This document shows positions 6,605 to 32,587 of a stretch of DNA of 64,000 nucleotides, in pieces. This DNA is from Hypnocyclicus thermotrophus (GTDB taxonomy: Bacteria > Fusobacteriota > Fusobacteriia > Fusobacteriales > Fusobacteriaceae), in contig NZ_SOBG01000001.1 in the NCBI RefSeq assembly GCF_004365575.1, positions 310,001 to 374,000 of the forward strand, written 5' to 3'. The notes beneath the pieces are model-generated. The model was given only the letters and a program-made list of their open reading frames with translations. It was not told the origin of the DNA and made no database searches. The translations under genes and the position numbers were made by a program. The first letter of the stretch is position 1. Every line of letters starts with the position of its first letter.

Positions 6605-6613
6605 TAAGAAAAT

Positions 6614-6668: not shown

Positions 6669-6687
6669 GTACTAATAATTAAGAGGA

Positions 6688-7411: not shown

Positions 7412-7720
7412 ATGGCAAAAACAGATAATAGCAGTTTTGAACAAAAACTATTTAAAGCGGCAGACAAACTTAGAAAGAACATTGATGCCGCAGAATACAA
7501 ACATGTTGTGTTAGGTTTGGTGTTTCTAAAATACATTTCCGAATCGTTTGCAGAACTCTATGACAAATTAGAAGCTGACGAATGGAGTGACCCAGAAGAT
7601 AGAGACGAATACATTGCTGAAAATGTTTTTTTTGTACCCAAATTAGCTCGTTGGACTCATATTCATTCTCAAGCTAAATTGCCAACTATCAAACCATTGA
7701 TGATGCAATGGAAGCCATAG
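7412..7720 (+). pseudogene. hsdM: hsdM 5' fragment (N-terminal helical domain)
   Basis: The N-terminal domain of a type I methyltransferase (FEQKLFKAADKLRKNIDAAE, then VLGLVFLKYISESF) runs normally until LPTI and then reads out of frame to a TAG at 7718-7720. The natural continuation ([15 protein letters not shown]) lies in another frame, as if about four bases were lost near 7690. Ribosome site AAAGGAG is present. The catalytic part is the next entry. Composition is clearly less A+T-rich than the host genes, which points to transfer. Confidence 0.85.
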
Positions 7721-8916: not shown

Positions 8917-10166
8917 GTGCAGATAATAATGTACCAAAAGGTTGGGTGGAGACTACTTTGGGTTTGTTTCCTGAACAATGGAAAATAATAACAGCAGAAA
9001 ATTTTTGTATAAAAATTGCAGATGGAACTCATAACTCACCTAAAAAAACAAAAGAAGGAAAGTTGTTAATAACTTCTAAAAATATTAAGAATAGTAAATT
9101 AGAAACATCTTCTGCATACAATATTTCCATTGAAGATTTTACTGAAATTAACAAAAGAAGCAAAGTTGACAAATGGGATATTTTATTATCAATGATTGGA
9201 ACTGTTGGAGAGGTTTGTTTATTAAATAATAAACCTGATTTTGCCATAAAGAATGTTGGATTATTCAAATGTGGAGATGAAACAAAGGCTAAGTGGTTAT
9301 TTTATTTTTTAATTAGTAAGATTGGTCAGAATTATATATTGAGTAGACTATCTGGGACAACTCAAAAATATATAACTCTTGGAGAGCTCAGAAAATTTCC
9401 AATTCCAGTCCCCCCACTCCAAGAACAAGTCGCCATAACAAAAATACTAACCGCCTTTGATGACAAAATAGAACTCTTACAAGCCCAAAACAAAACCTTA
9501 GAAACCACCGCTCAAACCATTTTTAAAGAGTGGTTTGTGGAAGAAGCAGGGGAGGATTGGGATAGAGTTAGTTTAGGTAATTCTGAGTTATCTAAAATAA
9601 TAGGAAGTGGACTTACAGAATTTAGAGGAGAAAAGATATATCTTGCTACTGCTGATGTTCAAAATGAAAAAATTGTTAACACAGAAACTTTTATAACATT
9701 TAACAAAAGACCTTCAAGAGCAAATATGCAACCCGTATTAAATTCTGTATGGTTTGCAAAAAAAGGTAGTGTTAGAAAAGTACTGATGTTTGATTTAAAT
9801 TCAAAAGAAGAAGTTGAAAAATATATTTTATCAACAGGATTTAGTGGATTAAAAACTACAAATCTATCTCATTATTATATTTGGCTATTCGTATTTAGTA
9901 AAGAATTTCAAGAAATTAAAGATAATTTATTGAGTGGTAGTGTTCAAGCTGATATTAATAATGACGGGATTAAAAATATTATGATTCCAAAACCAGATAA
10001 TAACATTTTAGAAAAATTCAATAATATCGTTGAACCATTGTTTCATAAAATTCAAAAAAATAATTCCCAAATCCAAACCTTAAAACAAACCCGCGACACC
10101 CTATTACCAAAATTAATGAGCGGGCAGTTGCGAGTTGATGAATTTAAAGAGAGTGCGGTATGTTAA
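8913..10166 (+). CDS. hsdS: Type I restriction-modification specificity subunit HsdS
   Basis: A 417-aa DNA-specificity subunit with two target-recognition domains. The first central spacer helix starts [17 protein letters not shown] near 165 and the second is C-terminal ([18 protein letters not shown]). TRD1 (about 15-160) and TRD2 (about 210-370) are more A+T-rich than the conserved helices, as expected from TRD exchange. Intact. It overlaps hsdM by four bases and hsdR by seven, a tightly coupled operon. The recognised bipartite DNA site cannot be predicted from sequence. Confidence 0.92.
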
Positions 10167-13100
10167 ACGAAAATACCATAGAACAATCATTCATTGACCA
10201 ATTAATAGCTCAAGGCTACACCTATTATAATGGTAAAGAGATTGCCCCAAATAGTGATAATCCACAGCGAGAGAATTTTGCATCAGTGATTTTAGAAAAG
10301 CACCTAAAAGCATCATTAAAAAAATTAAATCCGACATTGAGCGAATCGGAACGAGTTGAAGCCTATCAAAAAATAATCAATCTTGGCACAGAAGATATAA
10401 TGGAAAACAACGAGCGTTTCCATAACTTACTTACAAATGGTGTAACGGTAGAATATACCAAAGACGGAAAAACAAAGGGGATTAATGTTACTTTGTTAGA
10501 TGTTGAAAATCCTGACAACAACAGCTTTTGGGTAGTTAATCAGCTTGTAGTAAAAGAGAACAACAACGAGAAGCGTTTTGATGTAGTTATTTTTGTAAAT
10601 GGTTTACCTTTGGTATTTGTGGAGTTAAAATCTGCCACAGATGAAAACGCAACACTTCGTAAAGCTTACACACAAATTCAAAACTATAAAAAAGCCGTTC
10701 CAACTATTTTTTATTATAATGCTCTTTGCGTTATTAGTGACGGAATAGAAGCAAAGACATCAAGTATATCAGCACCATTTACCCGTTATTTATCGTGGAA
10801 ATCGCCAGAGAAATTAGACAATGACCCACGGACAGAATTACAAATTTTAACCCAATATATGCTGGGTAAAAAAACATTAGTTGAGCTAATACGATACAAT
10901 ACTGTTTTTGAGCAAGAAGAAAAAAAAGATGAAAAAACAGGCTTAGTTTTTCAAGTTAAAATCAAAAAGGTTGCAGCGTATCATCAATATTATGCGGTAC
11001 AAAAAGCAGTTAAAGAAACTTTGAGAGCCACAAATTCAAAAGAGGGTGACCGTAAAGTTGGCGTAGTTTGGCATACACAAGGTTCGGGGAAATCATTATC
11101 AATGGTTTTTTATGCAGGTCAAATTATTACACACCCAAAAATGGGAAATCCAACCATTGTAATGCTTACTGATCGTAACGACTTAGACGACCAACTTTTT
11201 AGCACTTTTGGAAACTGTAAGCAACTTTTAAGACAAACACCTGTGCAAGCCAATAGCCGTGAACATTTAAAAGAGTTATTAAAAGTTTCAGGTGGAGGTG
11301 TAATATTTACCACTATTCAAAAATTCGCACCACAAGAGGGAAATATTTACGAAACACTATCAGAACGCACAAATATTGTAGTTGTTGCAGATGAAGCACA
11401 CCGTAGCCAGTATGGTTTTAAAGGTAGAGTTGTAGAAAATGAAGAGGGTTCGGAAATTAGATACGGAAATGCAAAATATTTGCGTGATGCTTTGCCCAAT
11501 GCTTCATACATTGGTTTTACAGGAACGCCAATTGAAAAAGAGGATAAATCAACGCCTGCTGTTTTTGGAGATTACATTGATGTTTATGATATTAAACAAG
11601 CCGTAGATGATAGAGCAACCGTTCCAATTAGTTACGAATCTCGTTTGGTAAAAATTAAATTAGATGAGCAGACCGCCAAAAAGTTAGATGAAGAAATTAA
11701 TGATATTTCTGATGCTACGGAAGAGCAGATTGAAAAAGCAAAGAAAAAAACAGCGACGATTGATACCGTAGTAGGACACCCTGACAGATTAAAAGATATT
11801 GCCAAAGATATTGTAAGCCATTTTGAAGCAAGGCAAAAAGTTTTTGAAGGTAAAGCTATGATTGTAGGAATGACACGAAATATTTGTGTGAAATTATACA
11901 ATGAAATAGTCGCATTAAAACCCCAGTGGCATAGTGATGATATAGACAAAGGAACTATTAAAGTTGTAATGACAAGTTCGACAGATGACCCCGAGATATT
12001 TCAACCGCATCACACTACAAAACAGCAACGAAAAGATTTAGCAATACGGATGAAAGACCCTAATGATGAGTTAAAATTGGTCATTGTTCGTGATATGTGG
12101 CTTACTGGATTTGATGTACCGAGTATGCACACTTTGTATGTAGATAAAAAAATGCAAGGGCATAACTTAATGCAGGCAATTGCAAGAGTAAACCGTGTTT
12201 ACAAAGACAAACCAGGTGGTTTGGTGGTTGATTACATTGGAATTGGTCAAGAACTTAGAAATGCAATGGCAACTTATTTGCAAAGCGGTGGGAAAGGTTC
12301 AGCAATTGTTGATATAAAAGAAGCTATCGCAGGAATGAAAGAGAAATTTGAAATTGTAGAGCAGATGTTCAACGGTTTCGATTATAAAAGTTATTTCAAA
12401 GTTGATACAGCTCAAAAATTACAAGTTTTGCTCGGTGCTCAAAATTTTATGTTATCTGATGTTAAACTCAAAGAGAGATTTTTAAAAGAAGTAACATTGC
12501 TGTCAAAGCTTTTTGCAATGTCAGTCCCAAGTTTTGAGGCAGAGGTGATAAAAGATGAAGTTGCATTCTTTCAAGCTGTAAAATCAAGAATAAATAAGTT
12601 TTCAGGGAATGGAATTAAATCGGATTACGAAGTTGAAACTGCGATTAAGCAAATTGTAGATGATGCACTTTCAAGTGATGGTGTCATAGATATTTTTGAA
12701 GCAGCAGGAATTGAAAGTCCTTCAATTAGTATTTTGTCGGATGAATTTTTATTAGAAGTTAAAAATATGCAACAAAAAAATGTTGCGTTTGAGTTGCTCA
12801 AAAAACTATTGAGTGATGAAGTAAGAGTTAGGAAAACAAAAAATATTGCACAAGGAAAAAAGTTTTCAGAAATGTTAGAGTCGGTTGTTAAACGATATCA
12901 TAATAATCAAATAGATTCTGCACAAGTATTACAAGAATTATCAGAAATTGCCAGAGAGATGCGTTTAGAAGATCATAAATCGGAAGAACTCGGACTTACA
13001 CCAGAAGAATACGCTTTTTATAGTGTGTTAAGTGAAAATGAATCAACTAGTTTTTTAGATGATAATAAGATGAAAGAATTAATTCACACCATTGTTGATG

Positions 13101-13282
13101 TAATTAGGAAAAATGCAACTGTTGATTGGAGCAAAAGAGATGATGTAAGGGCAAAATTAAGATTAACAGTAAAGAAAATATTGATGCGTTATGGTTATCC
13201 ACCAGATTTAGCAAGAATGGAAGCAGACAAAGTTTTAGCACAAGGTGAAACATTAGCAGAAATATTCTCATCAGAAAATTAG
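10160..13282 (+). CDS. hsdR: Type I restriction endonuclease subunit HsdR
   Basis: A 1040-aa motor/nuclease subunit. The N-terminal nuclease core has FDVVIFVNGLPLVFVELKS (D and E-x-K of the PD-(D/E)xK fold, about 140-160). SF2 translocase motifs follow: Walker A WHTQGSGKS near 307, DEAHRSQ near 412, SYIGFTGTPIE near 450, and motif VI region MQAIARVNRVYKDKPGG near 675. The C-terminal helical part that binds HsdM/HsdS is complete. Intact although hsdM upstream is broken, so the complex may be unable to methylate or even assemble. Confidence 0.93.
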   Translation: MLNENTIEQSFIDQLIAQGYTYYNGKEIAPNSDNPQRENFASVILEKHLKASLKKLNPTLSESERVEAYQKIINLGTEDIMENNERFHNLLTNGVTVEYTKDGKTKGINVTLLDVENPDNNSFWVVNQLVVKENNNEKRFDVVIFVNGLPLVFVELKSATDENATLRKAYTQIQNYKKAVPTIFYYNALCVISDGIEAKTSSISAPFTRYLSWKSPEKLDNDPRTELQILTQYMLGKKTLVELIRYNTVFEQEEKKDEKTGLVFQVKIKKVAAYHQYYAVQKAVKETLRATNSKEGDRKVGVVWHTQGSGKSLSMVFYAGQIITHPKMGNPTIVMLTDRNDLDDQLFSTFGNCKQLLRQTPVQANSREHLKELLKVSGGGVIFTTIQKFAPQEGNIYETLSERTNIVVVADEAHRSQYGFKGRVVENEEGSEIRYGNAKYLRDALPNASYIGFTGTPIEKEDKSTPAVFGDYIDVYDIKQAVDDRATVPISYESRLVKIKLDEQTAKKLDEEINDISDATEEQIEKAKKKTATIDTVVGHPDRLKDIAKDIVSHFEARQKVFEGKAMIVGMTRNICVKLYNEIVALKPQWHSDDIDKGTIKVVMTSSTDDPEIFQPHHTTKQQRKDLAIRMKDPNDELKLVIVRDMWLTGFDVPSMHTLYVDKKMQGHNLMQAIARVNRVYKDKPGGLVVDYIGIGQELRNAMATYLQSGGKGSAIVDIKEAIAGMKEKFEIVEQMFNGFDYKSYFKVDTAQKLQVLLGAQNFMLSDVKLKERFLKEVTLLSKLFAMSVPSFEAEVIKDEVAFFQAVKSRINKFSGNGIKSDYEVETAIKQIVDDALSSDGVIDIFEAAGIESPSISILSDEFLLEVKNMQQKNVAFELLKKLLSDEVRVRKTKNIAQGKKFSEMLESVVKRYHNNQIDSAQVLQELSEIAREMRLEDHKSEELGLTPEEYAFYSVLSENESTSFLDDNKMKELIHTIVDVIRKNATVDWSKRDDVRAKLRLTVKKILMRYGYPPDLARMEADKVLAQGETLAEIFSSEN

Positions 13283-15679: not shown

Positions 15680-15995
15680 GTAAATTTTAAGCATAATAGT
15701 CTTAGTAGACTTTTGTTGAATAAAAGGTATTAAAAAAATTCTAATAGGTAAGATATAGGCTGATTTTTGTCAAATATAATATGATGTACATACGAGATGA
15801 CACCAAATTTTAAGTCATCAATTAAAACCTCTTTTCCTTATTGTAGTTGCATACAGAGGAAACATTATACGATAGAAATCATTCTTTAACATTTTAAAAA
15901 AGTTTATTTTTGATTTGAAAGAAAAAATCTAAAATTCATCTAAAAGAAGTTTTTGCCGATTGTTCTAGTTGGTTTGATAAAATTTGGAGGTGAAA
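15680..15995 (+). other. Non-coding stretch before the defence-like cassette
   Basis: About 315 bases with no supported gene. It holds the likely promoter region of the downstream cassette and, at 15971-15985, the string GGTTTGATAAAATTT that recurs at 23678-23692 after the cassette. Each copy has TTTGCCG just upstream (15952-15958 and 23672-23678). I see no clear -35/-10 pair or terminator. Confidence 0.4.
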
Positions 15996-18900
15996 ATGGA
16001 AGAATATATTATAATCCCGAATTGGATAAATAATATTCATGAAATTAAAAGTGAAAACTTAAAAGAATTTTTTGAATATATTCTGAAATCAGAAGATAAT
16101 AAAATTGATATAGAGTATTTGAGAAAATACTACAAAGAAAGTCGAGAAATAAATTTTAGAAATGTAATAGACGAACTAGCATTAAGAGGATTTGAATTTA
16201 AAACATTGAAATCAAACAATATTTTACCAAAAGTAGAGTATTGCGAGGAGGAAGAACTAATTTTTGTATCAAGGCTAGGAAAGAACTTTGTAAAGATTGA
16301 TTTTAAAAATTTGAATTTAGGAAATTTTATTGAAAGATTTCGAGTTAAAGATGATTTATTTTTTAATAAAATTCCTTATAAGGGGTTTCGCTACTTAAAT
16401 CCAAATGTAAATAATGAAATATTAAAAAAAGAATTTAAAAATACTTTTAATTCTAGGAAAAATAAAGAAGAAAATTTTTTAAATGAGAATATTGAAATTG
16501 ATAATCAAAAGGATTTCCTTGAATTAGTAGAAAATCCAAAACTCAAACCCGAGTTAGATAATGAGATTAATTCAATAAATTATATCTTTAAAGAAAGAAA
16601 ATTTGAAATGTTTAGAGAGTTTTGTAATAAAAAAGAATTGAAATATATATACGAAATTAATAACAATACTTTTATTAGTTTTCAAAATGAACTAGGAGTT
16701 GGATCTAAAAAACTTTATCAAGTTAAAGAATTTTTAGAAAAAAATATTACCCCTAATGACATAAAAAAAAGATTTGAATTAATGTACAATAAAGAAATAA
16801 ATCTAGAAGAGAATATTTTAAAAGAATTCGGTGAAATAACTGTTTCTCGAGTTTTGAAAGTATTTAATATAAACTTAAATATTAAGGATGATATAAAAAT
16901 TGAACAACTGAACAATAGAAAGATCAGTCAATTTATTGAAATTAATGAAAATTATGAAAATGAAAATTTAGAGAAATTGATAGATATTATAAACAAACTA
17001 GAATCTCCATCAAAGATGATAAAAAAAATATCTTTTAATGAAAAAGAATATGAGATATTTGAAAAAAGATTTCTCGATGGAATGACTTATGAAAAGATCA
17101 GCAAACTATTTGGAGTGACACGCGAAAGAATTAGACAAATTTTAGAAAAAATTCATAAAAATGTTTTTCATGAATTAAAAGCAAATAATTTTTTGCAAAT
17201 AATAAAGCTTTTTTTTCCTAACAGAACTTTTATAGAAAAAGAAGAATTGATTAGAATTATTACTTCTAAAAATATCAATTATATTTATTTGTTTAATAAT
17301 TATAATAATGAGATATTCTATTATTACGAACCTTTGGAATTATATTTTTTCAAAGATATTTCGAGGCTAATAAACGAAATTAAAAACTTTATAAATAAAT
17401 TACCAGATTATTTTTATTTATTTGATTTTTTAGATGAAATTATTGATTTGTTATCAAAATATAAAATGGAAGATATAAAAATAGAAGATATTGAAAATCT
17501 ATTAATGTATTATGGCTTCATTAAATATAATGAATGTTTTTCAAGAATAAAAATGACGGTAACTTTGTTTTTTAGTATTGTTTTCGATCAATATATAACA
17601 GAGCCAATATATTTTAATGAAGAAGGGCTTTTATATTTAAAAAAAATTGGTATAGAATTTTTAAACTATAAATTAACAGGAAATATTAGATCATTAGAAG
17701 GGAGAATTAGAGATAATGATGAAATTGTATTGGTTGGACCAAAAACTTTTTTGAATATTAACAGAATAAAATATGATTTAAATATCTTAGCAATAATAGA
17801 CAAATATTTACTGAAAAAAAGTAAACAACAGGATAAAATTAATGCTGAGGAAATATTTAGTGATTTAAAAGATATATTAATTGAAAATAATATTAAAAAT
17901 AAACAAACACTATATTCAATTATTAAATATAATTATGAAGAAAAATATAATATTGGGAAGGGAAATACTTTAGATATATTTTTAAATGATAATATTGAGA
18001 AACTTAGCAAAGAGGAACAGGTCGTAAATATTGTTAGAAAATATAATAATCCTATCAACAAAGAAATTATCTTAAGAAAACTAAACTGGAAACTCTTTAA
18101 ACTTGAAGATACTATATCTAAATCAAGTAAAATTATTTCTTGGGGAAGAAATTTAATAACATTAATTGAAACAATAAAAATAACGAAGGATCAGAAAAGA
18201 AAATTAAATGATTTATTAAATCAAAAAATGGAAAATGGATTTACAACAAGCCATATCCTTTTGAATGAATTAAGATTTGATTCAGAACTTAATAAAATAA
18301 TAAAAAATAATAATATAGAGAATTCATTTCAATTAGCTTCTATTATAAAAAATATATTTACAAATATTGGAGGACGTACATTATTTCTTTATAAATTAAA
18401 TAGTGGTATTACTTCTATAGAAAAGGTTATAAAAAATAAATTTACTGAAATTTTATTAAAAGAAGATTTAAAGTTTTTTTTAGAAGAATACGGATATAAG
18501 AGTGGGGCTATTGCACAAATTTTGGGGAAATTATTAAAAAAAGAAATTTTTGTAGAAATAAGTCGTGAAGAAATAATTCTAAAAGAAAAATTAAATATAC
18601 CTAATGACGTATATAATAAAGTAAAAGATATTATTGAGGATAATTACTTTAAAAATGAATACTTAAGTTTGCATAGTATAGAAGGGTATAGAAAAATTTT
18701 ACCCAAAATACAATATAAGTGGAATCCTCATTTATTAGGAACGATATTAAAAAATGTAGGATATAGAAAAATAGAAAAGAGTAACGGTGATTATAGATAT
18801 AATAAAATAATAATTGTAAGGGAAGATAGCCATATAAAAACATTTGAAGATTTAGTTTACCATATTTTAGAAAAAGAATATAATGGAATTTTTCATGAAT

Positions 18901-19040
18901 TAAAAGTATATGATTTTTTAGTTGAAAAAAAAATAATAAATGGCAGAGAGTATATTGAAAATAAGAAATTACCATTGGAAATAAAAAAGTCAGAAATAAT
19001 TAAAATTGATAAAGTTGGTAGAATTGAGTTGGTGAAGTAG
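15996..19040 (+). CDS. Large sigma-70-region-4-like / helix-hairpin-helix protein of the DndD-like cassette
   Basis: 1014 aa from ATG 15996 (GGAGGTG five bases upstream; a longer TTG reading is less likely). About residues 226-247 resemble the RNA polymerase alpha-CTD/helix-hairpin-helix (FQNELGVGSKKLYQVKEFL). About 347-385 is a sigma-70 region 4 type helix-turn-helix (DGMTYEKISKLFGVTRERIR). The rest is helical, with several winged-helix-like stretches and no nuclease or ATPase motif that I recognise. It leads the cassette, so a role in DNA recognition or transcription control is inferred. The combination is not one I can assign to a named family. Confidence 0.6.
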   Translation: MEEYIIIPNWINNIHEIKSENLKEFFEYILKSEDNKIDIEYLRKYYKESREINFRNVIDELALRGFEFKTLKSNNILPKVEYCEEEELIFVSRLGKNFVKIDFKNLNLGNFIERFRVKDDLFFNKIPYKGFRYLNPNVNNEILKKEFKNTFNSRKNKEENFLNENIEIDNQKDFLELVENPKLKPELDNEINSINYIFKERKFEMFREFCNKKELKYIYEINNNTFISFQNELGVGSKKLYQVKEFLEKNITPNDIKKRFELMYNKEINLEENILKEFGEITVSRVLKVFNINLNIKDDIKIEQLNNRKISQFIEINENYENENLEKLIDIINKLESPSKMIKKISFNEKEYEIFEKRFLDGMTYEKISKLFGVTRERIRQILEKIHKNVFHELKANNFLQIIKLFFPNRTFIEKEELIRIITSKNINYIYLFNNYNNEIFYYYEPLELYFFKDISRLINEIKNFINKLPDYFYLFDFLDEIIDLLSKYKMEDIKIEDIENLLMYYGFIKYNECFSRIKMTVTLFFSIVFDQYITEPIYFNEEGLLYLKKIGIEFLNYKLTGNIRSLEGRIRDNDEIVLVGPKTFLNINRIKYDLNILAIIDKYLLKKSKQQDKINAEEIFSDLKDILIENNIKNKQTLYSIIKYNYEEKYNIGKGNTLDIFLNDNIEKLSKEEQVVNIVRKYNNPINKEIILRKLNWKLFKLEDTISKSSKIISWGRNLITLIETIKITKDQKRKLNDLLNQKMENGFTTSHILLNELRFDSELNKIIKNNNIENSFQLASIIKNIFTNIGGRTLFLYKLNSGITSIEKVIKNKFTEILLKEDLKFFLEEYGYKSGAIAQILGKLLKKEIFVEISREEIILKEKLNIPNDVYNKVKDIIEDNYFKNEYLSLHSIEGYRKILPKIQYKWNPHLLGTILKNVGYRKIEKSNGDYRYNKIIIVREDSHIKTFEDLVYHILEKEYNGIFHELKVYDFLVEKKIINGREYIENKKLPLEIKKSEIIKIDKVGRIELVK

Positions 19041-19202
19041 AATTTCATTAAATGATTTAAACTTAAAATTTAAATATAGATCTGATATTGATGAGCTTTA
19101 TAAAGATTTTTATATAAAATATCATGAAAATTTGGAATATTTTATGATAAATATAACAATCAAGTTTTATTTTCAGGTTCATCAAATGAAACTATAGGAG
19201 GT
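19041..19202 (+). pseudogene. Remnant of an N-terminal PLD nuclease domain of the helicase
   Basis: Upstream of the helicase ATG and in its frame is FGIFYDKYNNQVLFSGSSN, then ETIGG, the second half of a phospholipase-D HKD motif (K....D......GS.N). A TGA at 19125-19127 interrupts this frame. One base earlier a different frame supplies the preceding part (SLNDLNLKFKYRSDIDELY ... YIKYH), so a single-base loss between H and K explains the break. The first HKD half is absent altogether. The helicase thus once carried a PLD nuclease domain. Confidence 0.6.
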
Positions 19203-20753
19203 ATGAAAAATAATTTTGAAAAAATAGATGTGTTCATAGAATCTAATAATTTAATGAGGATAAAAGATGCAATATATGATTTTGAGCGTTTATGTGAAAA
19301 TAAAACAAAAAGATTAGAAGTCATAAAATTACTAATGGAAGTAAAAAATAAAATACTTTCTTTTAGGAAGGATAGAAAATTAATGAATACAAATTATAAA
19401 AAAGAAAATATAATAACTCCAAGAGATTATCAAGTAGAGGCAATAAATGCACTAAAGAATAATAACTATAAAGGAATATTTGAGATGGCAACAGGTACGG
19501 GAAAGACCATTACAAGTATTTTATGTGCTAATAACTACTATATCACAAATAAAAGGATATTTTTGATAATATTAGTTCCTTTTATTCATTTGATAGAGCA
19601 ATGGATATTAACTCTTGAGAAACTTAATTTTGAAAACATTTTAAAATGTTTTGGAAATAAAAACAAGTGGATATATCAAATGAGAGAAAAAGTCAGAGAT
19701 TATAATATAAATATTAGTAAAAAAGAGGTAATAATTACTACATATAAAACAGCTTCTTCTAAAGATTTTAATGATATAATTTTCAAATTAAAAGGAAAAG
19801 GGTTTTTAATAGCTGATGAATGTCATTATTTTGGGATTAAAAGCTTAAGATATAAAATAGACGGTAGATTAGGATTGTCCGCAACTCCAAATCGCTGGTG
19901 GGATAAATCAGGTACTGATTTTATTTATGAATATTTTGAAAAAACTATTTATGAATATAATATGGAAAAAGCAATTACAAAAGGAAATCTTATTAAGTAT
20001 AATTATTTTCCGATAAAAATTGACTTATCAGAAAAAGAAATAAAGGATTATCAAAAGTTAACCAAGCATTTAGTATATTTGTTTTCAGAAAAGAAAAAAG
20101 ACAAACAGAAAATTGAACAAATAACAAGAAAAAGGTCATCTATCCTATCAAAAGCTGTTAATAAAAAGGAAATTTTATTTAAAATATTATCAAATAAAAA
20201 TTTTGATGAAATATCACATACATTGCTGTATTGTGCACCAGGAGAAATTAATGAATTAACTAAATCAATTGCTAATTTAGGAATAAAAGTTTATAGATTT
20301 GACTCAAAGGTAAAAAAAGTTGATAGAGAAATGTTATTAAAAAATTTTGAAAATGGTAAAATTCAAATACTTGTTGCAATAAAATGTTTAGATGAAGGAG
20401 TGGATGTTCCAAGTACAAAAGAAGCTTATTTTCTTTCAAGTACTTCCAATCCTAGAGAATTTATACAACGACGAGGTAGAATATTAAGACCTGCACCAAA
20501 TAAAAAAAATGCAAATATTTATGATTTTATTGTAATTCCAAAGAACGTAGATGAAGTTTTATTTAAGAATATTGTTTCTAAAGAAATGCCACGTTTTGCT
20601 GAATTTTCAAAATATGCATTTAATGAGTTTTATGCTAGGAAAGAAATAAAAAAATACTTAGAAAAATATAACCTTTCTTATTTAATGGACAAATTACCTT
20701 GGGATATATATAACGAATTTCAAAATGAATGGGAGGATAATGAATGGATATAA
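19203..20753 (+). CDS. SF2 DEAD/DEAH-type helicase (lost PLD domain), DndD-like cassette
   Basis: 516 aa with a complete SF2 core: Q-like TPRDYQVEAINAL, Walker A ATGTGKT (96-102), DECHYFG near 206, SATPNRWW near 225, and motif VI FIQRRGRILRPAP near 420. It resembles helicases annotated as phosphorothioation-system restriction enzymes, which carry an N-terminal PLD nuclease; that assignment is from memory of the family. Here the PLD part is broken (previous entry). The present ATG has GGAGG only one base away, a poor spacing, so expression is uncertain. Its end overlaps the 52-aa ORF by ten bases. Confidence 0.75.
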   Translation: MKNNFEKIDVFIESNNLMRIKDAIYDFERLCENKTKRLEVIKLLMEVKNKILSFRKDRKLMNTNYKKENIITPRDYQVEAINALKNNNYKGIFEMATGTGKTITSILCANNYYITNKRIFLIILVPFIHLIEQWILTLEKLNFENILKCFGNKNKWIYQMREKVRDYNINISKKEVIITTYKTASSKDFNDIIFKLKGKGFLIADECHYFGIKSLRYKIDGRLGLSATPNRWWDKSGTDFIYEYFEKTIYEYNMEKAITKGNLIKYNYFPIKIDLSEKEIKDYQKLTKHLVYLFSEKKKDKQKIEQITRKRSSILSKAVNKKEILFKILSNKNFDEISHTLLYCAPGEINELTKSIANLGIKVYRFDSKVKKVDREMLLKNFENGKIQILVAIKCLDEGVDVPSTKEAYFLSSTSNPREFIQRRGRILRPAPNKKNANIYDFIVIPKNVDEVLFKNIVSKEMPRFAEFSKYAFNEFYARKEIKKYLEKYNLSYLMDKLPWDIYNEFQNEWEDNEWI

Positions 20754-20902
20754 ATTCAATATTAATAAAAGAAATTGAAGAAAATTTTCCAGTAGAAGTT
20801 AAAGAGTTGGCTATAATTATTTTGTCTGAATTAAATAAAAATAAATCAAATAGACAAATAGAAGAAATCATTTTAGAAGAATTAAGAGAATCGTTTATAT
20901 AG
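20744..20902 (+). CDS. 52-aa ORF between helicase and DndD-like ATPase
   Basis: ATG at 20744 overlaps the helicase 3' end and has GGGAGG eight bases upstream; it stops at TAG 20900-20902, twelve bases before the next gene. The product is acidic and predicted helical (EIEENFPVEVKELAIIILSE ... EEIILEELRE). Placement and ribosome site argue for a real, coupled gene. No family recognised; it could be a small adaptor of the ATPase or the helicase. Confidence 0.5.
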   Translation: MDINSILIKEIEENFPVEVKELAIIILSELNKNKSNRQIEEIILEELRESFI

Positions 20903-20914
20903 GAGAAGACGTAA

Positions 20915-22939
20915 ATGAAAATATTGAAAATATATTTAGAAAATTTTAGACAATTTTATGGAAAACAAGAGATTGTTTTTTCAAAAGGAGAAAAAAATAT
21001 AACTGTAATATTTGGAGAAAATGGAAAAGGAAAAACAAGTATTTTTAGAGCTTTAATATTTGCTTTATTTGGAAACAAGTTTTTGGAACAAGATAATGAG
21101 AAAGAAAAGATACATTTAGTAAATTTTAATATTCTTGACGAAAATATTGGATGTCCTGTAGAGGCTTGTGTTAAAGTTGAATTTGAAGAAAATGGAAAAG
21201 TTTATTTTTTAGAAAGAAGTATTACTGGGTATAAAGTGAAAAATGAAATTGTAGAAAAAGTTAATAAAGCAAAGTTGTATATGCAAGATAGTAAAGGTAA
21301 TTATTCTGGAGATCCAATAGTAGATGAAAATTTTATAAAAAGTCAAATAGAAAAAATTATTAGCTCAAATATAAAAGATTTTTTTCTTTTTGATGGTGAA
21401 AAAATAGATGCACTTGCAAAAACTAATATACTTATTAGAAAAAAAGTGAAGCAAGGTATAGTTCAATTGTTACAAATTGATAAATTAGATAAATCAATAG
21501 AAATTACTAAAAATTTATATAACAAAGAGAATAAACTAATTTCTACTCAAAGTAGTAATATGAATATAAAAAGCATAGAAGAACGAATAGAAGATAAGAT
21601 GAAAAAATTGAATGAAAACTTTGAAGTAATAAAGAAAAATGAAGAAGAACTTGAATTTTGTAAAGAAGAACTTGATGAAATTGATATAAAGTTATCGAAA
21701 AGTGAACCAATAAAAAGGATACAAGAAGAATCTAAAAATATTAAGGTTAAAATAAAGGAGTATAATGAAAAATTGAATTTATTAAAAGGAAATTTGAGTA
21801 GAAGTTATTTTAATAGTTTACATCAATTTTTCATGAAAGATTCTTATGAAGAAGTTAAGGAATATTTAAATCAACTTTTAACCGAACAAAAAGATTTAGT
21901 GTCTATTGAAATAATAGACAAAATTCTTTTAGAAATGAAGTGTATTTGTGGTACAAATTTAAATATTGACAAAGAAGCATTGAAGAATATAGAAAAGATT
22001 AAGAATGAATATAAAAAATCGGAATTAACTCCATTAATAAGGTTGATTAATGAGATTGTTCATGATTTTTCTTTAAATAAAGATGAAATTATTAATAATA
22101 TAAGAAAAGATTTATTAAAAATAAAAAATACAAAAGATGAATTAAATAAATTACATTTTCTTCTAGAAAAGAATAATGATGATATAAAAGAATACAGTAA
22201 AGAAGAAGAAAACTTAACTAAATTAGAGGAAATAAGTGAAAAATTAAAAACTAAATTTGAAAAATTAAAAATTGATATCAGAGCTTTACATAAAGTAAAT
22301 GATGATTTAAAGAAAAATATTAACAAAGAACAAAAAGAACTTGAAGTATTAATGTCTAAGGATAAATCATTAAGGGCAGATTATGAAAGACTTAAATATT
22401 TGAATATTTTAAAAGAAAATTTTGAGAATATATTTGAAAAATATAGCAGTAAAATAAGAAAAGACTTATCGTATGAATGTACAAAAATTTTTAATAAATT
22501 AATTGATATTAAGAATAAGAATTTAATAAATGAGATTAATATAAATGAAAAGTATGAAATAGAATTAAAAAATTGGTCTGATATACAAACTAATCAAGAT
22601 ATTTCTCAAGGGCAAAGACAAATCATTGCATTGTCTTTTATTACAGCATTAGCCAAAATTGCTTCTGGTGGTCGTGAAAATATTGAATTTCCCTTATTTA
22701 TGGATACTCCATTAGCAAGAATAAGTGGAGAAAACAGAGACAATATTATTGATAATATTCCAGAATTAACAGTACAATGGATTTTATTATTAACAGATAC
22801 AGAATTTACAGTAACAGAAGAATTAAAAATAAAATCTACACAGCGTTTGGGTAAATGGTATATTTTGGAACAAATAAAAAATGGATATACCAAAATTACC
22901 TCTAAGAAATTAGATGATTCTATAGCGAAAAGGAGGTAG
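20915..22939 (+). CDS. DndD-like SMC/Rad50-type ATPase
   Basis: 674 aa. Walker A is GENGKGKTS (34-42). The DndD-type block FFLFDGEKI is at 156-164. A long coiled coil is split near 345 by a short hook CICG, and the distal half has the ABC signature ISQGQRQ near 561 and Walker B FPLFMDTPL near 592. This layout and the FDGEKI motif match DndD, the ATPase that nicks or opens DNA in phosphorothioation systems. However, no dndB, dndC (sulfurtransferase) or dndE gene is nearby, so sulfur modification is not supported. AGGAGA ribosome site. Stop is two bases before the next gene. Confidence 0.8.
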   Translation: MKILKIYLENFRQFYGKQEIVFSKGEKNITVIFGENGKGKTSIFRALIFALFGNKFLEQDNEKEKIHLVNFNILDENIGCPVEACVKVEFEENGKVYFLERSITGYKVKNEIVEKVNKAKLYMQDSKGNYSGDPIVDENFIKSQIEKIISSNIKDFFLFDGEKIDALAKTNILIRKKVKQGIVQLLQIDKLDKSIEITKNLYNKENKLISTQSSNMNIKSIEERIEDKMKKLNENFEVIKKNEEELEFCKEELDEIDIKLSKSEPIKRIQEESKNIKVKIKEYNEKLNLLKGNLSRSYFNSLHQFFMKDSYEEVKEYLNQLLTEQKDLVSIEIIDKILLEMKCICGTNLNIDKEALKNIEKIKNEYKKSELTPLIRLINEIVHDFSLNKDEIINNIRKDLLKIKNTKDELNKLHFLLEKNNDDIKEYSKEEENLTKLEEISEKLKTKFEKLKIDIRALHKVNDDLKKNINKEQKELEVLMSKDKSLRADYERLKYLNILKENFENIFEKYSSKIRKDLSYECTKIFNKLIDIKNKNLINEININEKYEIELKNWSDIQTNQDISQGQRQIIALSFITALAKIASGGRENIEFPLFMDTPLARISGENRDNIIDNIPELTVQWILLLTDTEFTVTEELKIKSTQRLGKWYILEQIKNGYTKITSKKLDDSIAKRR

Positions 22940-22941
22940 TA

Positions 22942-23394
22942 ATGGATTTTCTAAGTGAGCAACAATTAATTTTTACAAGTAAAAAATATGAAGATATTTA
23001 TATTTTTTTTAATGAAACCTTTAGTATAAAATATCAAGATTTGTTTATACTTTGTTCGGCGATTGGCTTTAAGAATAATAGACATATAAAATTTGATTCA
23101 AAAGGGAGAGAACTTCGGTCAAATTATTTTAGTTCAGCTCAAAAGGCAACCGCATATTCAATAATTCTTGCAGATAAAGAAATAGGTAGAGAAATAGAAA
23201 AATTTGAGAATAAAAATTTTATGTTACTAGCAAGAAAAAAACTTGAAGAGTATGCAGAAGGAGGTATGGAAATACTTTTAGAAGAAGTATTTGAGAATAA
23301 ATTTATAGAGAGCAAATTAGATATTGTATATAAAGAATACGATATTGATTTATTTAGTTATGTACTGGAGAAATTTGATGAAATTCCATTTTAA
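22942..23394 (+). CDS. Small protein resembling dnd system-associated protein 4
   Basis: 150 aa, GGAGG ribosome site, two bases after the DndD-like gene. The pattern YEDIYIFF, YQDLFILCSAIGFKNNR, FSSAQKATAYSIILAD and YAEGGMEILLEE is like the dnd-associated-4 family (a small protein clustered with phosphorothioation genes, with a conserved ..F..A...GF and E.YA.GG..IL). This is recognition by eye, not a profile result. It is predicted mostly helical and soluble. It closes the cassette; a role as partner of the ATPase is inferred. Confidence 0.5.
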   Translation: MDFLSEQQLIFTSKKYEDIYIFFNETFSIKYQDLFILCSAIGFKNNRHIKFDSKGRELRSNYFSSAQKATAYSIILADKEIGREIEKFENKNFMLLARKKLEEYAEGGMEILLEEVFENKFIESKLDIVYKEYDIDLFSYVLEKFDEIPF

Positions 23395-23738
23395 AAAATC
23401 CGATCATCCTAGTCAGCTTTCCTAAAATTATATGAGTTTTGAATTTTTTATATAAAACTGAAAGCGGTTATGATTACAATTTATCAAGAAATGACCTAAA
23501 GGACAGGCTAATTTCTACCAGATAACCTCGAGTTATACGACTTTTTTCATTAACTGAATTAGGATGTTTTCACTAAAAGCTTAAATCTTACTTTTTTATT
23601 GTAAAGCTTAAAAAATTATGTTATCTTAATATCGTTATTTAATAAGTGAGCTAAGCATAGATGATAATATCTTTGCCGGTTTGATAAAATTTCATATTTA
23701 AAAAGAAATATTACATAATTAATTGTATAAAAAAAACA
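23395..23738 (+). other. Non-coding stretch between cassette and right repeat
   Basis: About 340 bases with no supported ORF and several short near-repeats (for example AAAGCTTAAA at about 23576 and 23603). At 23678-23692 it has GGTTTGATAAAATTT, also found just before the cassette at 15971-15985. No clear T-run hairpin follows the last cassette gene. Confidence 0.4.
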
Positions 23739-23793
23739 AAAAAGTTATTTTTTTCTCTTGAATTTTATTGAAAATAAAGTTAATATTATATAT
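23739..23793. repeat. Right copy of 55-bp direct repeat; carries the HEPN gene promoter
   Basis: It is identical to 6614-6668 at 54 of 55 positions. Within it TTGAAT (23758-23763) and TAATAT (23781-23786) with a 17-base spacer form a plausible promoter, 31 bases upstream of the coiled-coil/HEPN gene. Sequence similarity stops abruptly on both sides of the repeat. Confidence 0.85.
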
Positions 23794-23816
23794 TTTAAAA
23801 TAAAGGGGATTACTTA

Positions 23817-24913: not shown

Positions 24914-24933
24914 AATATTAAAAGGTGGTAAAG

Positions 24934-26196
24934 ATGATAAAGGATATTTACAAATCAGTAGAAAAAACATTTTTTGCAATTCTTATTTTTGATAAACAGT
25001 TTAAATTGAATTATATTAATGAAATAGGAGCTAAAAATCTTAGTTATAATATTTCAGAAATAAAAGGAGTAAATTTAAAATATTTTTTTAAAGAGAATAA
25101 AATAGAAATAATACAAAAAAATAAGTTAGGAATTTTAATTAAAGCATTTGTAAAAAATAAAGGAATGAAATATTTTAAAGTTATAATAGAAAAAAATAAA
25201 GATGATAAAATAATTTATTTATTAGACGTTAGTTTCGAACAAAAAAAAATGAATATTTTATTTGATATTTTTGAATTAAGAGATTATTTATTTAATTATA
25301 TAGATGACTATATTTTTATTTATGAATTGAATAATAAGTTAGAAATAAATAGATTGTTAGAAGTAAATTTAAAAGTAAAAAAAGAATTATATTATACTCA
25401 AAATGAATTATTTGATAAAAAAATAAATGAATTATTTATTATAAAAGCAAAAGATTTATATTCAAAAAATAAAACAAAATCTAAGTTAGTTAGAAGAAAT
25501 GGAAGTTATATAACAGTAGAATTAACTAAATTAAAAATAGAAAATAAAAATTTATTTATAATAATAGCAAAAGATATAGAAATAGAAGAAAAAGCAAATA
25601 ACATATTGGAAAAAAATTTACAAAATAGAGATAAATTAATAGATGAAATTGTGGAGACTGTTAGTAAAATTGTAGAACAAAAAGATCCTTATACTACAGG
25701 GCATCAAAAAAATGTGGCTAAAATAGCAGTAAAAATAGCTCAAAAATTAGAACTTGATGATGACATAGTAAAAGCGATAGAAATTGCAGGAAAACTTCAT
25801 GATGTAGGTAAAATTTCTATTCCAACAGATTTATTAAATAAACCAGGAAAACTTATAAATGAAGAATTTAGTTTAATAAAAACACATGTTGATAGTGGAT
25901 ATGACATATTAAAAAATATAGATTTTCCATGGGATATAGCTGAATATGTATTAGAACATCACGAAAGATTAGATGGAAGTGGATACCCTAGAGGATTAAA
26001 AGATAATGAAATAAGAATAGAGGCCCAAATAATTGCTATATCAGATGTAATAGATGCAATGATATCTCATCGACCTTATCGACCGGCACTTTCAAAAGAA
26101 ATAGTAATAAATGAATTGAAATCTAAATCAGGAATACATTTTAATAGAAAAATTACTGAAATTGCTATAGATATATTAAATGAATTGGAGGTATAA
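24934..26196 (+). CDS. PAS-like sensor HD-GYP cyclic-di-GMP phosphodiesterase
   Basis: 420 aa from ATG 24934 (AAGGTGG upstream; the GTG at 24925 lies inside that site). The N-terminal 220 residues look like two PAS-type sensor modules. From about 235 a full HD-GYP domain follows: DPYTTGHQKNVAKIA, the HD pair in GKLHDVGK, and HHERLDGSGYPRGL. It should hydrolyse c-di-GMP in the cytoplasm. It is first of eight co-directional genes, so c-di-GMP turnover is tied to this chemosensory pathway. Confidence 0.88.
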   Translation: MIKDIYKSVEKTFFAILIFDKQFKLNYINEIGAKNLSYNISEIKGVNLKYFFKENKIEIIQKNKLGILIKAFVKNKGMKYFKVIIEKNKDDKIIYLLDVSFEQKKMNILFDIFELRDYLFNYIDDYIFIYELNNKLEINRLLEVNLKVKKELYYTQNELFDKKINELFIIKAKDLYSKNKTKSKLVRRNGSYITVELTKLKIENKNLFIIIAKDIEIEEKANNILEKNLQNRDKLIDEIVETVSKIVEQKDPYTTGHQKNVAKIAVKIAQKLELDDDIVKAIEIAGKLHDVGKISIPTDLLNKPGKLINEEFSLIKTHVDSGYDILKNIDFPWDIAEYVLEHHERLDGSGYPRGLKDNEIRIEAQIIAISDVIDAMISHRPYRPALSKEIVINELKSKSGIHFNRKITEIAIDILNELEV

Positions 26197-26199
26197 TAT

Positions 26200-27264
26200 A
26201 TGGATGAATTATTCGAATTATATAAAATATCCACAAAAGAACAAAAGCTAGATTTAATAGATGAATTTTTTAAAAGAAAAAATTATTTAGAATATATAGA
26301 TAGGTTGTTTGAATTATTAGAAAATGAAAAAGAACTTATCATACGAGAAAAAATTGTATTTTCATTAAAAAAATATAATACTATAGAAATAGTTCAACAA
26401 ATATTAAAATTTTATGATTCAAATGATGTATATTTGAGAAATATTGCAATAGATATTGTTACTTCATATTATGAGTTACCTTTACAAAATTTATTAAAAA
26501 TGTTAAATAGTGAAAATAAACATATTAGAAAGCTAGCTTTAGATACACTTTTTAATACTAGAAACCCTATGATGGCTAGTTTTATTATGGAATCTTTAAT
26601 TAATGAAACTGATATAAATAACAAAATTACAGCCGTAGAATATTTAGGAAAATTAAATGCTAAAAGATATGCTGATGATATCGTAAATTTATTAGATAAA
26701 GAGGACAATGAATTTTTTACTGTGACAGTAATAGAAGCGTTAAATTATATAGGAAATGATTATTGCTATAAAAAATTATCAGAAAAATTTAATGATATAG
26801 AAAATGTAAGTATTATTATATTAAAACCATTAATAAAATTTTGTGCAAAATTTATAAAAAAAGATATGATATATAAATTAAAAAAATTAAAAAAACATTA
26901 TAAATTTTTAGCTAAAGAGATTATTTTTGCTCTAAATTCTGCATTTCAAAATTTAACAGAAGATGAAATTTTTGAAATAGAAAAAGATATTTATAATATA
27001 TTAAAAGAACTTTTAGAATTGAAATTATCTGATATTATATATTATGAAGTATTAACTTTATTATCTTTATATGATAATGAAGAGGTAGAAAATATAGCAA
27101 AAAAATATTTATATGAAAAAGAAGGTATAATAAGATATAAATCAGCTGAGATATTAATTGAAAAAAATCAAATAAAATACATAGAAGATGTAAAAAAAAG
27201 TTTGAATTATGAAAAAGATCAAACAATAAGAGAGAGATTAAGAGAATTAATCAAAGGTGAATAA
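26200..27264 (+). CDS. HEAT-repeat protein
   Basis: 354 aa of repeating helical pairs of about 30 residues (for example VYLRNIAIDIVTSYYELP, KHIRKLALDTLFNTRNPMMA, ITAVEYLGKLNAKRYADDIV), an all-helical HEAT/PBS-lyase-like solenoid. No signal peptide. It starts three bases after the HD-GYP stop (GGAGG before it) and ends just before cheR. Such scaffolds usually bind proteins; its place in the operon suggests an assembly or adaptor role in the chemosensory array. No catalytic residues recognised. Confidence 0.7.
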   Translation: MDELFELYKISTKEQKLDLIDEFFKRKNYLEYIDRLFELLENEKELIIREKIVFSLKKYNTIEIVQQILKFYDSNDVYLRNIAIDIVTSYYELPLQNLLKMLNSENKHIRKLALDTLFNTRNPMMASFIMESLINETDINNKITAVEYLGKLNAKRYADDIVNLLDKEDNEFFTVTVIEALNYIGNDYCYKKLSEKFNDIENVSIIILKPLIKFCAKFIKKDMIYKLKKLKKHYKFLAKEIIFALNSAFQNLTEDEIFEIEKDIYNILKELLELKLSDIIYYEVLTLLSLYDNEEVENIAKKYLYEKEGIIRYKSAEILIEKNQIKYIEDVKKSLNYEKDQTIRERLRELIKGE

Positions 27265-27265
27265 A

Positions 27266-28150
27266 ATGGGATTAAATATAAATAAAATAAAAGAAAAACG
27301 GGAAAGGATAGATCTATTAGATAAAAATATATTAATAATAAAAGATATTATATATGAGTATTCAGGAATATTTATTTCTGAAAATCAATATTATTTTTTG
27401 TATACTAAAATTCAAAAAAGATTAGAAAAGGTTGAAATTAAATCCATAAGTGAATATTTAAAATATTTAAAAAAAAGTAATAATGAAATAAAAAAATTAT
27501 TAAATGAAATTACAATAAATGAAAGCTATTTTTTTAGAGAATTTAATCAATTAAAAGTATTTGGAGAAGAATGCCTTATAGAAGTAGCTAAAAATAAAAC
27601 TGATAAAAAAATAAAGATATTATCAGCGGGATGTTCTATAGGTGCAGAACCATATTCAATAGCAATTATTGCAGAAGAAATGTTAGGGAATGATAACTTT
27701 GATTTTGAAATTATAGCTATTGATATTGACGAAGAAATATTAAAATTTGCTAGAAAAGGTATTTATGATAAAAATAGAATAAATCAAATACCGAAACTTT
27801 ATTTAGAAAAATATTTTCTAAAATATAATGAAAAATATATTATAAATGATTTTATAAAAGAAAAAGTAAAATTTAAAAGAATTAACTTAGTAAACGATAG
27901 AGAGCTAAGAAGTTTGGGAAAAAACTTTGATTTTATATTTTGTAAAAATGTACTTATATATTTTAATAGCTTTTCTCGTCGAAAAGTGATAGAGAATTTT
28001 TATAAAATGATGAATGAAAATGCTTATATATTTTTGGGATCTTCAGAATCATTAAATAGAATAACAGAAGCATTTTATATAAAAAAAATTGAAAATCAAA
28101 TTGTATATCAAAAAAAGAGAGGGGAAAATTATGAAGATATTAATTATTGA
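27266..28150 (+). CDS. cheR: Chemotaxis receptor methyltransferase CheR
   Basis: 294 aa from ATG 27266 (AAAGGTG upstream). It has the CheR N-terminal helical domain, including NEITINESYFFRE, and the SAM-binding SAGCSIGAEPYSIAI, followed by IDIDEEILKFARKGIY and FDFIFCKNVLIYF. It should methylate glutamates on the operon's soluble receptor. The start follows the HEAT-protein stop by one base, and the end overlaps the receiver gene by 20 bases. Confidence 0.92.
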   Translation: MGLNINKIKEKRERIDLLDKNILIIKDIIYEYSGIFISENQYYFLYTKIQKRLEKVEIKSISEYLKYLKKSNNEIKKLLNEITINESYFFREFNQLKVFGEECLIEVAKNKTDKKIKILSAGCSIGAEPYSIAIIAEEMLGNDNFDFEIIAIDIDEEILKFARKGIYDKNRINQIPKLYLEKYFLKYNEKYIINDFIKEKVKFKRINLVNDRELRSLGKNFDFIFCKNVLIYFNSFSRRKVIENFYKMMNENAYIFLGSSESLNRITEAFYIKKIENQIVYQKKRGENYEDINY

Positions 28151-28502
28151 TGATTCAGAAACTACAAGAAATTTTTATACATATATTCTTGAAAGTCAGA
28201 GAATAGATGTAGTTGATGCAAGTGATGGAATGAATGCATTAGATAAACTTTATTATTATAAAGATGAGATAAAACTTATATTAACTGATTTAAATATGCC
28301 AAATTTAGACGGGTTATCATTAATAAAAAAAATTAGAGAAAATAAAGAGTTTGAAGAAATTCCTATTGGGATATTATCTACTCTTGATGAAAAAGATAAA
28401 ATTGAAGAGGGATATAGAATAGGGGCTGATTTTTACATTATAAAACCAGTTGAATCGAATAATTTTATTGAAATAGTAAAATCATATTTAGAGGTAGAAT
28501 AA
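28131..28502 (+). CDS. cheY: CheY-like single-domain response regulator
   Basis: 123 aa receiver: acidic pair Asp7-Asp8, phospho-acceptor Asp53 in LILTDLNMPNLDG, and the conserved Lys in IIKPVE. The ATG at 28131 follows a GAGGGG site and lies inside the cheR 3' end. The longer upstream reading is only cheR in another frame. It is the likely output or phosphate sink for the CheA encoded next, whose start overlaps its stop (TAATG). Confidence 0.9.
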   Translation: MKILIIDDSETTRNFYTYILESQRIDVVDASDGMNALDKLYYYKDEIKLILTDLNMPNLDGLSLIKKIRENKEFEEIPIGILSTLDEKDKIEEGYRIGADFYIIKPVESNNFIEIVKSYLEVE

Positions 28503-30628
28503 TGGAAGTTGTTGATTATATAAAACAATTAAAACGAGAAATTATTAAAAATGAATTTAATCAAGGAATGATAGAGTTTTATAGAAAAAAATTAAGAACA
28601 TATAATTATTTATTTGAATTATTAAATTATTTTGAAATTTTAAATAAAACATATCAAAAAAATAAAGATGAAATAATTAAAATATTAATTAATGATATAA
28701 AAGATGAAATATTGTTAGATTGCAATTTTATTTTAGATAATAAAAAAGAAAATACTCAAAATAAACAGACTATAGAAAAAGAATTTAATAAAATTAAACT
28801 TTTAAATAAAAAAGAAAATAAAGAAATATTATTATTTAAAAATATAAATTATATATTTAATAATAAACTTGAAGAAAAGACTTTTAATGATTATTTGTTA
28901 GAGGCAAATGAAATAATAACTAAAATAGAAGAAAATTGTATAAATTATGAAAATAGTTTAGATAATGAAGTGTTGAAAATCCTAAAAAGAGAATTACATA
29001 CTTTAAAAGGTAACACAAGATTATTAGAAAGTTTTGAATTGGATAAAAGCATAAAAAATATTTTAAAATTAATAGAAGAAAAAACTCATTATTTTGAAGA
29101 TATTATTATAAATGATTCACTAATTAATAATATTAATATATTTTTTAGTTATATTGATTTTATAAAAGAAATTTTAGAAAAATTTGAAAACAAAAAAAAT
29201 ATCATTGATTTAAATGGATTTAAAGAGTTATTTAATTATAATAAAAAAGAAGAAAATGAAAATGATGTTATATTAAATAATTTTATTATCCAATTTAAAG
29301 AGTATATTCAAATTAATATATTAAATAAAAAAGATTTTAATTTAGCAAAATTGAAAAGGAGCTCAAAAGGTTTTTATAATTATGTAAAAAAGAAAAATAT
29401 TAAAAAACATATAAAATTTATTGAAGAAATATATTCTAATGTAGAAAATAAAAATTTTGATAAAATATATAATTTAATAAATTCAACGCAAAAAACAAAT
29501 AAAAAAATAGATATAAGTAATAAAATTTATTTAAATAAAGAAACTATTAATAATTTAGAAATAATATTAAATAATATGTTTTTATTAAATTCTGAATACG
29601 AATATTTATTGAAGAAATATTCTATAAATAACAATGAATTTATAAATTTTAAAAAGAAATTTAATAAAAATATGGATAGCTTTAATAATTTATTAAACAA
29701 TATAAAAATGGAAAAAATAGGAACTTTATTTAAAATTTTAAAAAGAAGTATTCGTGATATTGCAAATGAACTTAATAAAAAGGTAGAAGTAGAAATAATG
29801 GGTGAGGAGAGTATACTTGATAAGGATATATATAATAAACTTCAAGAACCGCTTGTACACATTGTGCGAAATGCTGTTTATCATGGTATAGAGAGTATTT
29901 CAGAAAGAATAGAAAAAGATAAAAATGAAAAAGGAAAAATAAATCTAAAAGCTTTTAATGAACGAGGAAATATAGTAGTTGAAATTTCTGATGATGGAAG
30001 AGGTATAAATAAAGAAAAAATAAAAAATAAAGCAAATAAATTAAATATAAAATATGATGAAAATAATATATACAACTTGATATTTTTACCTAATTTTTCT
30101 ACTAATGATGAGGTGGATAATATATCTGGTAGAGGGATAGGAATGGATATAGTAAAAAATGTAATTAATTCATTAAATGGAAATATAAAAATAGAAAGCA
30201 AAAAAAATGAAGGAACAAAGTTTATATTGAAAATTCCTATAAATTTATCAATTGTTAATGGTATATTAATTAAGATTAATAATATAAAATATATTTTACC
30301 TATAAATAAAATTGATAAAATAATTAAAAATAATTTTGAAATAAGAAGTTATAAAAATGAATATTTTTTAAAACAAAATAATGAAATTTATCCAATTTAT
30401 AGTTTTAATTCTAATTCAAACTATAATAATAAAATATATATATTGCTAAAAAATAATGAAAAATATATAGCCTTTATGATAGATGAAGTAATAGAAAAAA
30501 ATAAATATTTAAATAAAAAATTACCAGATATTTTAAAAAATGAAAAATATTTATTTGGAGTATCTATATTAGGAAATGGTGAAATTTTAGGGATATTAAA
30601 TATTGAATATATATTAAATGGAGGATAA
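28502..30628 (+). CDS. cheA: Chemotaxis histidine kinase CheA
   Basis: 708 aa. The HPt phospho-site His166 sits in KRELHTLKGNTRL, preceded by an unusual 130-residue helical extension. The kinase domain has the N-box LVHIVRNAVYHGIE near 455, G1 DDGRGI near 498 and G2 GRGIGMD near 540, and a C-terminal CheW-like domain runs about 580-708. The usual Asp of NAVDHG is Tyr. No receiver domain is fused. It overlaps the upstream receiver by one base and the next gene's ribosome site. Confidence 0.92.
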   Translation: MEVVDYIKQLKREIIKNEFNQGMIEFYRKKLRTYNYLFELLNYFEILNKTYQKNKDEIIKILINDIKDEILLDCNFILDNKKENTQNKQTIEKEFNKIKLLNKKENKEILLFKNINYIFNNKLEEKTFNDYLLEANEIITKIEENCINYENSLDNEVLKILKRELHTLKGNTRLLESFELDKSIKNILKLIEEKTHYFEDIIINDSLINNINIFFSYIDFIKEILEKFENKKNIIDLNGFKELFNYNKKEENENDVILNNFIIQFKEYIQINILNKKDFNLAKLKRSSKGFYNYVKKKNIKKHIKFIEEIYSNVENKNFDKIYNLINSTQKTNKKIDISNKIYLNKETINNLEIILNNMFLLNSEYEYLLKKYSINNNEFINFKKKFNKNMDSFNNLLNNIKMEKIGTLFKILKRSIRDIANELNKKVEVEIMGEESILDKDIYNKLQEPLVHIVRNAVYHGIESISERIEKDKNEKGKINLKAFNERGNIVVEISDDGRGINKEKIKNKANKLNIKYDENNIYNLIFLPNFSTNDEVDNISGRGIGMDIVKNVINSLNGNIKIESKKNEGTKFILKIPINLSIVNGILIKINNIKYILPINKIDKIIKNNFEIRSYKNEYFLKQNNEIYPIYSFNSNSNYNNKIYILLKNNEKYIAFMIDEVIEKNKYLNKKLPDILKNEKYLFGVSILGNGEILGILNIEYILNGG

Positions 30629-30629
30629 A

Positions 30630-32576: not shown

Positions 32577-32587
32577 AAAGGAGAATT

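Follow-up and report, generated by a model that had tools for sequence, protein, structure and literature searches.

Described systems most similar to the locus

Solitary PbeABCD gene sets without dnd genes have already been published (PMC6459918). In the survey of that paper 320 of 553 pbeAC loci had no dndCD nearby, so that the absence of dnd genes is not new in itself. The paper left open whether such dnd-less PbeABCD copies are non-functional or act together with a different partner. Systems anchored by a CxC-ABC-ATPase and DndE are likewise described, in the main text of Rakesh et al. 2024 (PMC10853773), as occurring without DndD-type genes.

The locus studied here lies in the window, the whole 64,000-nucleotide stretch of Hypnocyclicus thermotrophus DNA that was analysed. 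Four of its five genes are a PbeABCD (CxC-ABC-ATPase/DndE) module. Compared with the DndCDEA-PbeABCD system, as presented in the main text of Xiong et al. 2019 (PMC6459918), the order PbeA, B, C, D and the strand are the same, whereas the genome of the window has no dndC, an extra gene, S, comes first and the nuclease part of PbeA is broken. With the systems of Rakesh et al. the locus shares the CxC ATPase, the DndE-like partner, the small protein and the HKD-SF2 protein, and the main text of that paper, supplements aside, describes no sigma-like or HhH/winged-helix first gene; the sole mention of "sigma" there concerns an HTH inserted in DndH. We found no published link between Pbe and a sigma-like protein in the open papers searched, and the main texts of PMC6459918 and PMC10853773, supplements aside, name none. 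The constant place of the S gene in this Pbe subtype is thus apparently undescribed, while the protein family itself is already annotated by PGAP, which labels some S proteins "sigma factor-like helix-turn-helix DNA-binding protein".

An earlier sequence-only reading of the window had taken the five genes for an unnamed set. This does not hold, since four of them are PbeABCD (PADLOC; PMC6459918, PMC10853773); an existing name covers these four and leaves the S gene apart. The same reading had singled out the sigma-like protein as the unusual element, and S is indeed the extra gene beyond PbeABCD. Our preferred interpretation, to which we give a probability of roughly 0.55, is that the locus represents a dnd-free PbeABCD anti-invader subtype in which a co-inherited fifth subunit, S, would read DNA.

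Layout of the cassette

A check of the open reading frames of the window placed five of them at 15996-23394, all on the + strand, in agreement with the coordinates first given. The features are as follows.

15996..19040, + strand: S, sigma-like protein, 1014 aa (PF04545, AlphaFold, Foldseek, homologues upstream of PbeA)
19042..19202, + strand: remnant of the N-terminal HKD (PLD) nuclease of PbeA (tblastn with the PbeA N-termini of relatives; translations)
19203..20753, + strand: helicase part of PbeA, SF2, 516 aa (PADLOC PDLC02707; TIGR04095)
20744..20902, + strand: small protein in the PbeB slot, 52 aa (position and size)
20915..22939, + strand: PbeC, CxC-type ABC ATPase, 674 aa (PADLOC PDLC02730; motifs)
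22942..23394, + strand: PbeD, DndE-like double ribbon-helix-helix protein, 150 aa (TIGR04062; AlphaFold; Foldseek)

The S gene starts with an ATG preceded by an SD-like ggagg, and a TTG at 15984 is also present. Gaps of a few bases or overlaps had been reported between all genes, which is true of every junction except the first, where 162 bp lie between the S gene and the helicase. The type I RM locus said to be nearby is there, with HsdM, HsdS and HsdR at 7708-13282.

An exact 15-bp direct repeat, GGTTTGATAAAATTT, lies on either side of the cassette (window positions 15971-15985 and 23678-23692) and could possibly be an insertion footprint. Some 92 bp of non-coding sequence 5' of a 330-aa gene (23723-23811) are 86% identical to 6598-6689. 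Further downstream, at 24925-33886, there is a chemotaxis-like set comprising an HD domain, HEAT repeats, CheR, CheA/CheW and an MCP.

The PbeABCD genes and the damaged nuclease of PbeA

The PADLOC search proposed in the sequence-only reading identified both PbeA (PDLC02707, 4.6e-163, profile positions 166-671 of 672) and PbeC (PDLC02730, 8.5e-216). PbeA also matched TIGR04095, dnd_restrict_1 (5.1e-127, under the curated cut-off), and the Walker A and DECH motifs of its SF2 helicase part are intact. PbeC has the CxC hook KCICGTN at residue 343, the Walker A motif and FFLFDGEKI. The last of these had been taken as a DndD motif; the motif is present, and the identification as DndD was rejected, as TIGR03185 gave 134 bits against a cut-off of 245.85 bits and the protein fits PbeC with its CxC hook. 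PbeB was assigned by position and size, the 52-aa ORF having no family match in profile searches and the relatives having similar ORFs of 52-68 aa in this slot. PbeD matched TIGR04062 (6.5e-06, under the curated cut-off), and its AlphaFold model (pLDDT 88.9) had best Foldseek matches that were all DndE (4lrv; probability up to 0.95, E >= 0.13). We count it as a probable DndE-like double ribbon-helix-helix protein, on a sub-cut-off profile and weak fold E-values.

The proposal that the helicase was once joined to a PLD nuclease was borne out by the 162 bp between S and the helicase. Comparison by tblastn with the PbeA N-termini of L044, L045, L046, L047, L048 and L090 showed that this segment, just 5' of the helicase, contains the remains of the PbeA HKD nuclease domain. 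Both the beginning of this domain and its terminal GSxNET can still be recognised; the stretch between them has lost about 110 codons and the frame is broken, while in the PbeA of these six closest relatives the domain is intact. The N-terminal HKD nuclease of PbeA is therefore broken in the window copy and, to judge from its sequence, most likely dead.

PbeA usually has the HKD domain but is not defined by it, and the loss of the domain leaves the assignment to Pbe standing: the main text of Rakesh et al. (PMC10853773) reports it in "the vast majority" of such systems, and HKD-less PbeA loci exist. Such proteins occur elsewhere in our tree at L066, L069, L070, L073, L078, L080, L082, L101, L106 and L110; at L080 the HKD part is a separate ORF upstream of PbeA.

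Because PbeA has lost about 110 HKD codons and the reading frame at that point, the Pbe copy of the window is probably impaired. The same damage, together with a sister species that does not have the system, favours the view that this is a decaying, non-functional locus and that active systems are found only among relatives elsewhere, to which we give a little less than even odds. On the other hand, the remaining four ORFs are all uninterrupted and of full length, S occurs with an HKD-less PbeA in a natural group of Lactobacillaceae, and in an archaeal system described in the main text of PMC6459918 the loss of pbeA left low-level resistance.

Domains and predicted structure of S

The sigma-70 region 4 and alpha-CTD motifs attributed to S were confirmed in part. 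Region 4 is supported by PF04545 (3.6e-09); no alpha-CTD/HhH profile match was obtained in the window S itself, and alpha-CTD (PF03118) was found in its relatives (L049, 7.5e-05; L053, 4.3e-13). Within S we distinguish an N-terminal domain (about residues 1-130), an HhH/alpha-CTD-like region (about 194-345) and the sigma-4 HTH (348-396), followed at residues 455-1012 by about eight winged helices predicted by AlphaFold. The model has a pLDDT of 72.7 overall and mostly 80-90 from residue 460 on, and from residue 455 it repeats a helix-helix-helix-strand-strand pattern, which we read as the winged helices; with a pTM of 0.36, it does not fix the arrangement of the domains. Foldseek matches were to the tandem winged-helix proteins UFL1/SelB and to sigma-4 on -35 DNA.

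Profile searches with the window S and its relatives detected neither region 2 nor region 3 of sigma factors, which makes it unlikely that S works as one. As a candidate sigma-70 factor it was rejected, the match being to region 4 and not to region 2 (core binding, -10 recognition). We also rejected membership of the MZA system: the likeness to MzaA is a sigma-70 region 4 match confined to the HTH region, at 34.4 bits against a cut-off of 800 bits, and no MZA partners were seen in the cassette.

The recognition helix of sigma-4, T-R-E-x-x-R-Q, is preserved in every one of the 15 S proteins compared, with the R-E-x-x-x-Q positions constant. The R, E and Q presumably match base-contacting residues of sigma-A. 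That one protein carries both sigma-4 and alpha-CTD-like domains could also suggest an RNA-polymerase mimic, in which these parts would dock on RNA polymerase or on transcription proteins of a phage and set off PbeABCD at phage takeover of transcription. We consider such a sensor distinctly improbable, and the conserved DNA-reading positions fit DNA binding equally well.

At L038 (3664-4545), on a Lactiplantibacillus plasmid, three tandem near-identical copies of the S N-terminus precede a full S gene.

Conservation and co-divergence of the five-gene unit

A PbeA-based scan of genome contigs yielded 80 loci, and a PbeA tree was built with 89 proteins. In one clade of 12 rows (SH-aLRT 98) S lies directly upstream of PbeA in 12 of 12. 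The members of this clade belong to Bacillaceae, Clostridium, Thermincola and Lactobacillaceae, with the window as a further member. S stands directly 5' of a full-length HKD-SF2 PbeA in L044-L049 and L090, and no dndB, dndC or dndD was found in the available flanks of these loci; on Lactiplantibacillus plasmids and in L062, S is accompanied by an HKD-less PbeA. S, A, C and D are the sole families of at least 80 aa common to all 12 loci, with unrelated flanks; PbeB falls below the 80-aa length cut of this comparison and was checked separately by position. In the relatives S and PbeA overlap or are at most 8 bp apart. The search of other genomes for the same gene order, suggested in the sequence-only reading, thus found it kept in at least 11 further loci, contrary to the possibility that the neighbourhood is not conserved. 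Within one PbeA clade S belongs to the unit as a conserved fifth component.

Outside the clade an S-like protein is also present upstream at L051-L053 and at L043, the latter with dndD and dndE alongside. In a reverse test an S profile matched 5 of 161 genomes of one family (E <= 1e-25), four of the five with adjoining PbeABCD. Two of these four (L045 and L090) were already in our set, so that the test added two loci and an orphan, a 1262-aa sigma-like gene at L143 (6988-10776) without PbeABCD nearby. A tblastn search of plasmids with the window S gave no match, the plasmid S genes being found later via PbeA, and a scan of genome contigs with poorly conserved patterns of PbeC alone found no relatives.

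A search for S in other genomes of the order of the window returned mainly a short core-genome family, not Pbe loci. These proteins of 603-613 aa (about 611 aa; L002-L013, L124-L132) share homology with S over its HhH, sigma-4 and first winged-helix portion, but are shorter. They lie in conserved chromosomal surroundings, adjacent to a UvrD-like helicase and an [FeFe] hydrogenase and without Pbe genes, in other genomes of the family of the window. Together with the L143 orphan, these relatives suggest that S-like proteins can have other jobs. Other proteins found 5' of PbeA are a GmrSD-type restriction protein (L079, 7217-9466) and a WD40-repeat protein (L050, 6893-9400).

The distances among S proteins track those of PbeA, PbeC and PbeD (Mantel r 0.93-0.94, 0 of 5000 permutations), a co-divergence that is also expected from simple linkage. 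S is the fastest evolving of these proteins, with a mean identity of 22% against 37-48% for PbeA, PbeC and PbeD, and its divergence exceeds that of A and C in every one of 55 pairs. As it abuts or overlaps PbeA in the relatives and its distances track A, C and D, we infer that S is a subunit of the system and not a passer-by.

The position of S as first gene of the operon would also fit a local regulator of Pbe, as would the predicted resemblance of its sigma-4 fold to sigma-4 on -35 DNA and the true sigma factors found at other Pbe loci (L108). This explanation is unlikely in our view: a protein of about 1000 aa with a long predicted array of winged helices is bigger than would be expected of a local regulator, and S overlaps or abuts PbeA in the relatives and co-diverges with it.

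The type I RM locus, some 2.7 kb upstream, raises another possibility, that the Pbe system is paired with methylation by this locus and not with phosphorothioation, and the main text of PMC6459918 reports methyltransferases within 10 kb of many solitary pbeAC loci. However, no modification enzyme or methyltransferase family is common to the flanks of the 12 loci, and the base composition differs (34% GC in the RM locus vs 22%). We regard this pairing as the least probable of the explanations considered.

Absence of sulfur-insertion genes

The statement that sulfur-insertion genes are missing was upheld for DndC (searched twice, once with working positive controls) and DndB, both absent from the whole genome of the window. 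Only two PAPS-reductase-type matches were found in this genome; they were read by sequence inspection as MnmA and GuaA and rejected as sulfur-insertion genes. DndC was also absent from all nine clade genomes searched whole (the window genome and eight more), with working positive controls. Of the dndCDEA half of DndCDEA-PbeABCD, DndC is thus lacking in the genome.

The Dnd-like parts recognised at the outset are real, PbeC being distantly homologous to DndD (TIGR03185, 134 bits) and PbeD to DndE. Compared with DndABCDE, the PbeC of the window stays under the DndD cut-off of 245.85 bits and the genome has neither DndC nor DndB, which sets the locus apart from that system.

In clostridial Pbe loci (L108, 1786-15415; similar in L089, L091-L093, L095, L099 and L100) a PAPS-reductase-domain protein, a 1216-aa protein without Pfam match and a cysteine desulfurase are encoded upstream of PbeA. 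Together these genes look like an alternative sulfur-insertion set. Eight clostridial loci have a sigma-region-4 protein 3' of PbeD; the one in L108, which has regions 1.1, 2 and 4, is a genuine sigma factor.

Proposed role of S

In the relatives S abuts or overlaps PbeA; it co-diverges with the module, is its most diverged member and keeps its recognition helix, from which we infer that it is a fast-evolving subunit for DNA recognition in a Pbe subtype independent of DNA modification. On this view S would detect some property of the target DNA and guide both the PbeC-PbeD scanning complex and the PbeA helicase-nuclease there, and in this subtype would replace the DNA modification that marks self elsewhere. 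The window copy, without most of the nuclease, may provide at most a non-cutting, helicase-type block. The model is weakened by giving no account of how an unmarked host chromosome would be spared, and by the broken PbeA of this copy.

A very improbable variant is that S reads promoter-like (-35-like) DNA or transcription-initiation states of the invader and loads PbeC-PbeD-PbeA there; if true, self and non-self would be set by promoter context, not by a DNA mark.

Under our preferred interpretation, that S is a DNA-reading subunit, the locus would be one example of a five-gene unit present in several bacterial groups, with an additional subunit that would bind DNA, and without DndC in those genomes that were searched. 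With this unit, the question raised in 2019 about dnd-less PbeABCD becomes directly testable in a laboratory host.
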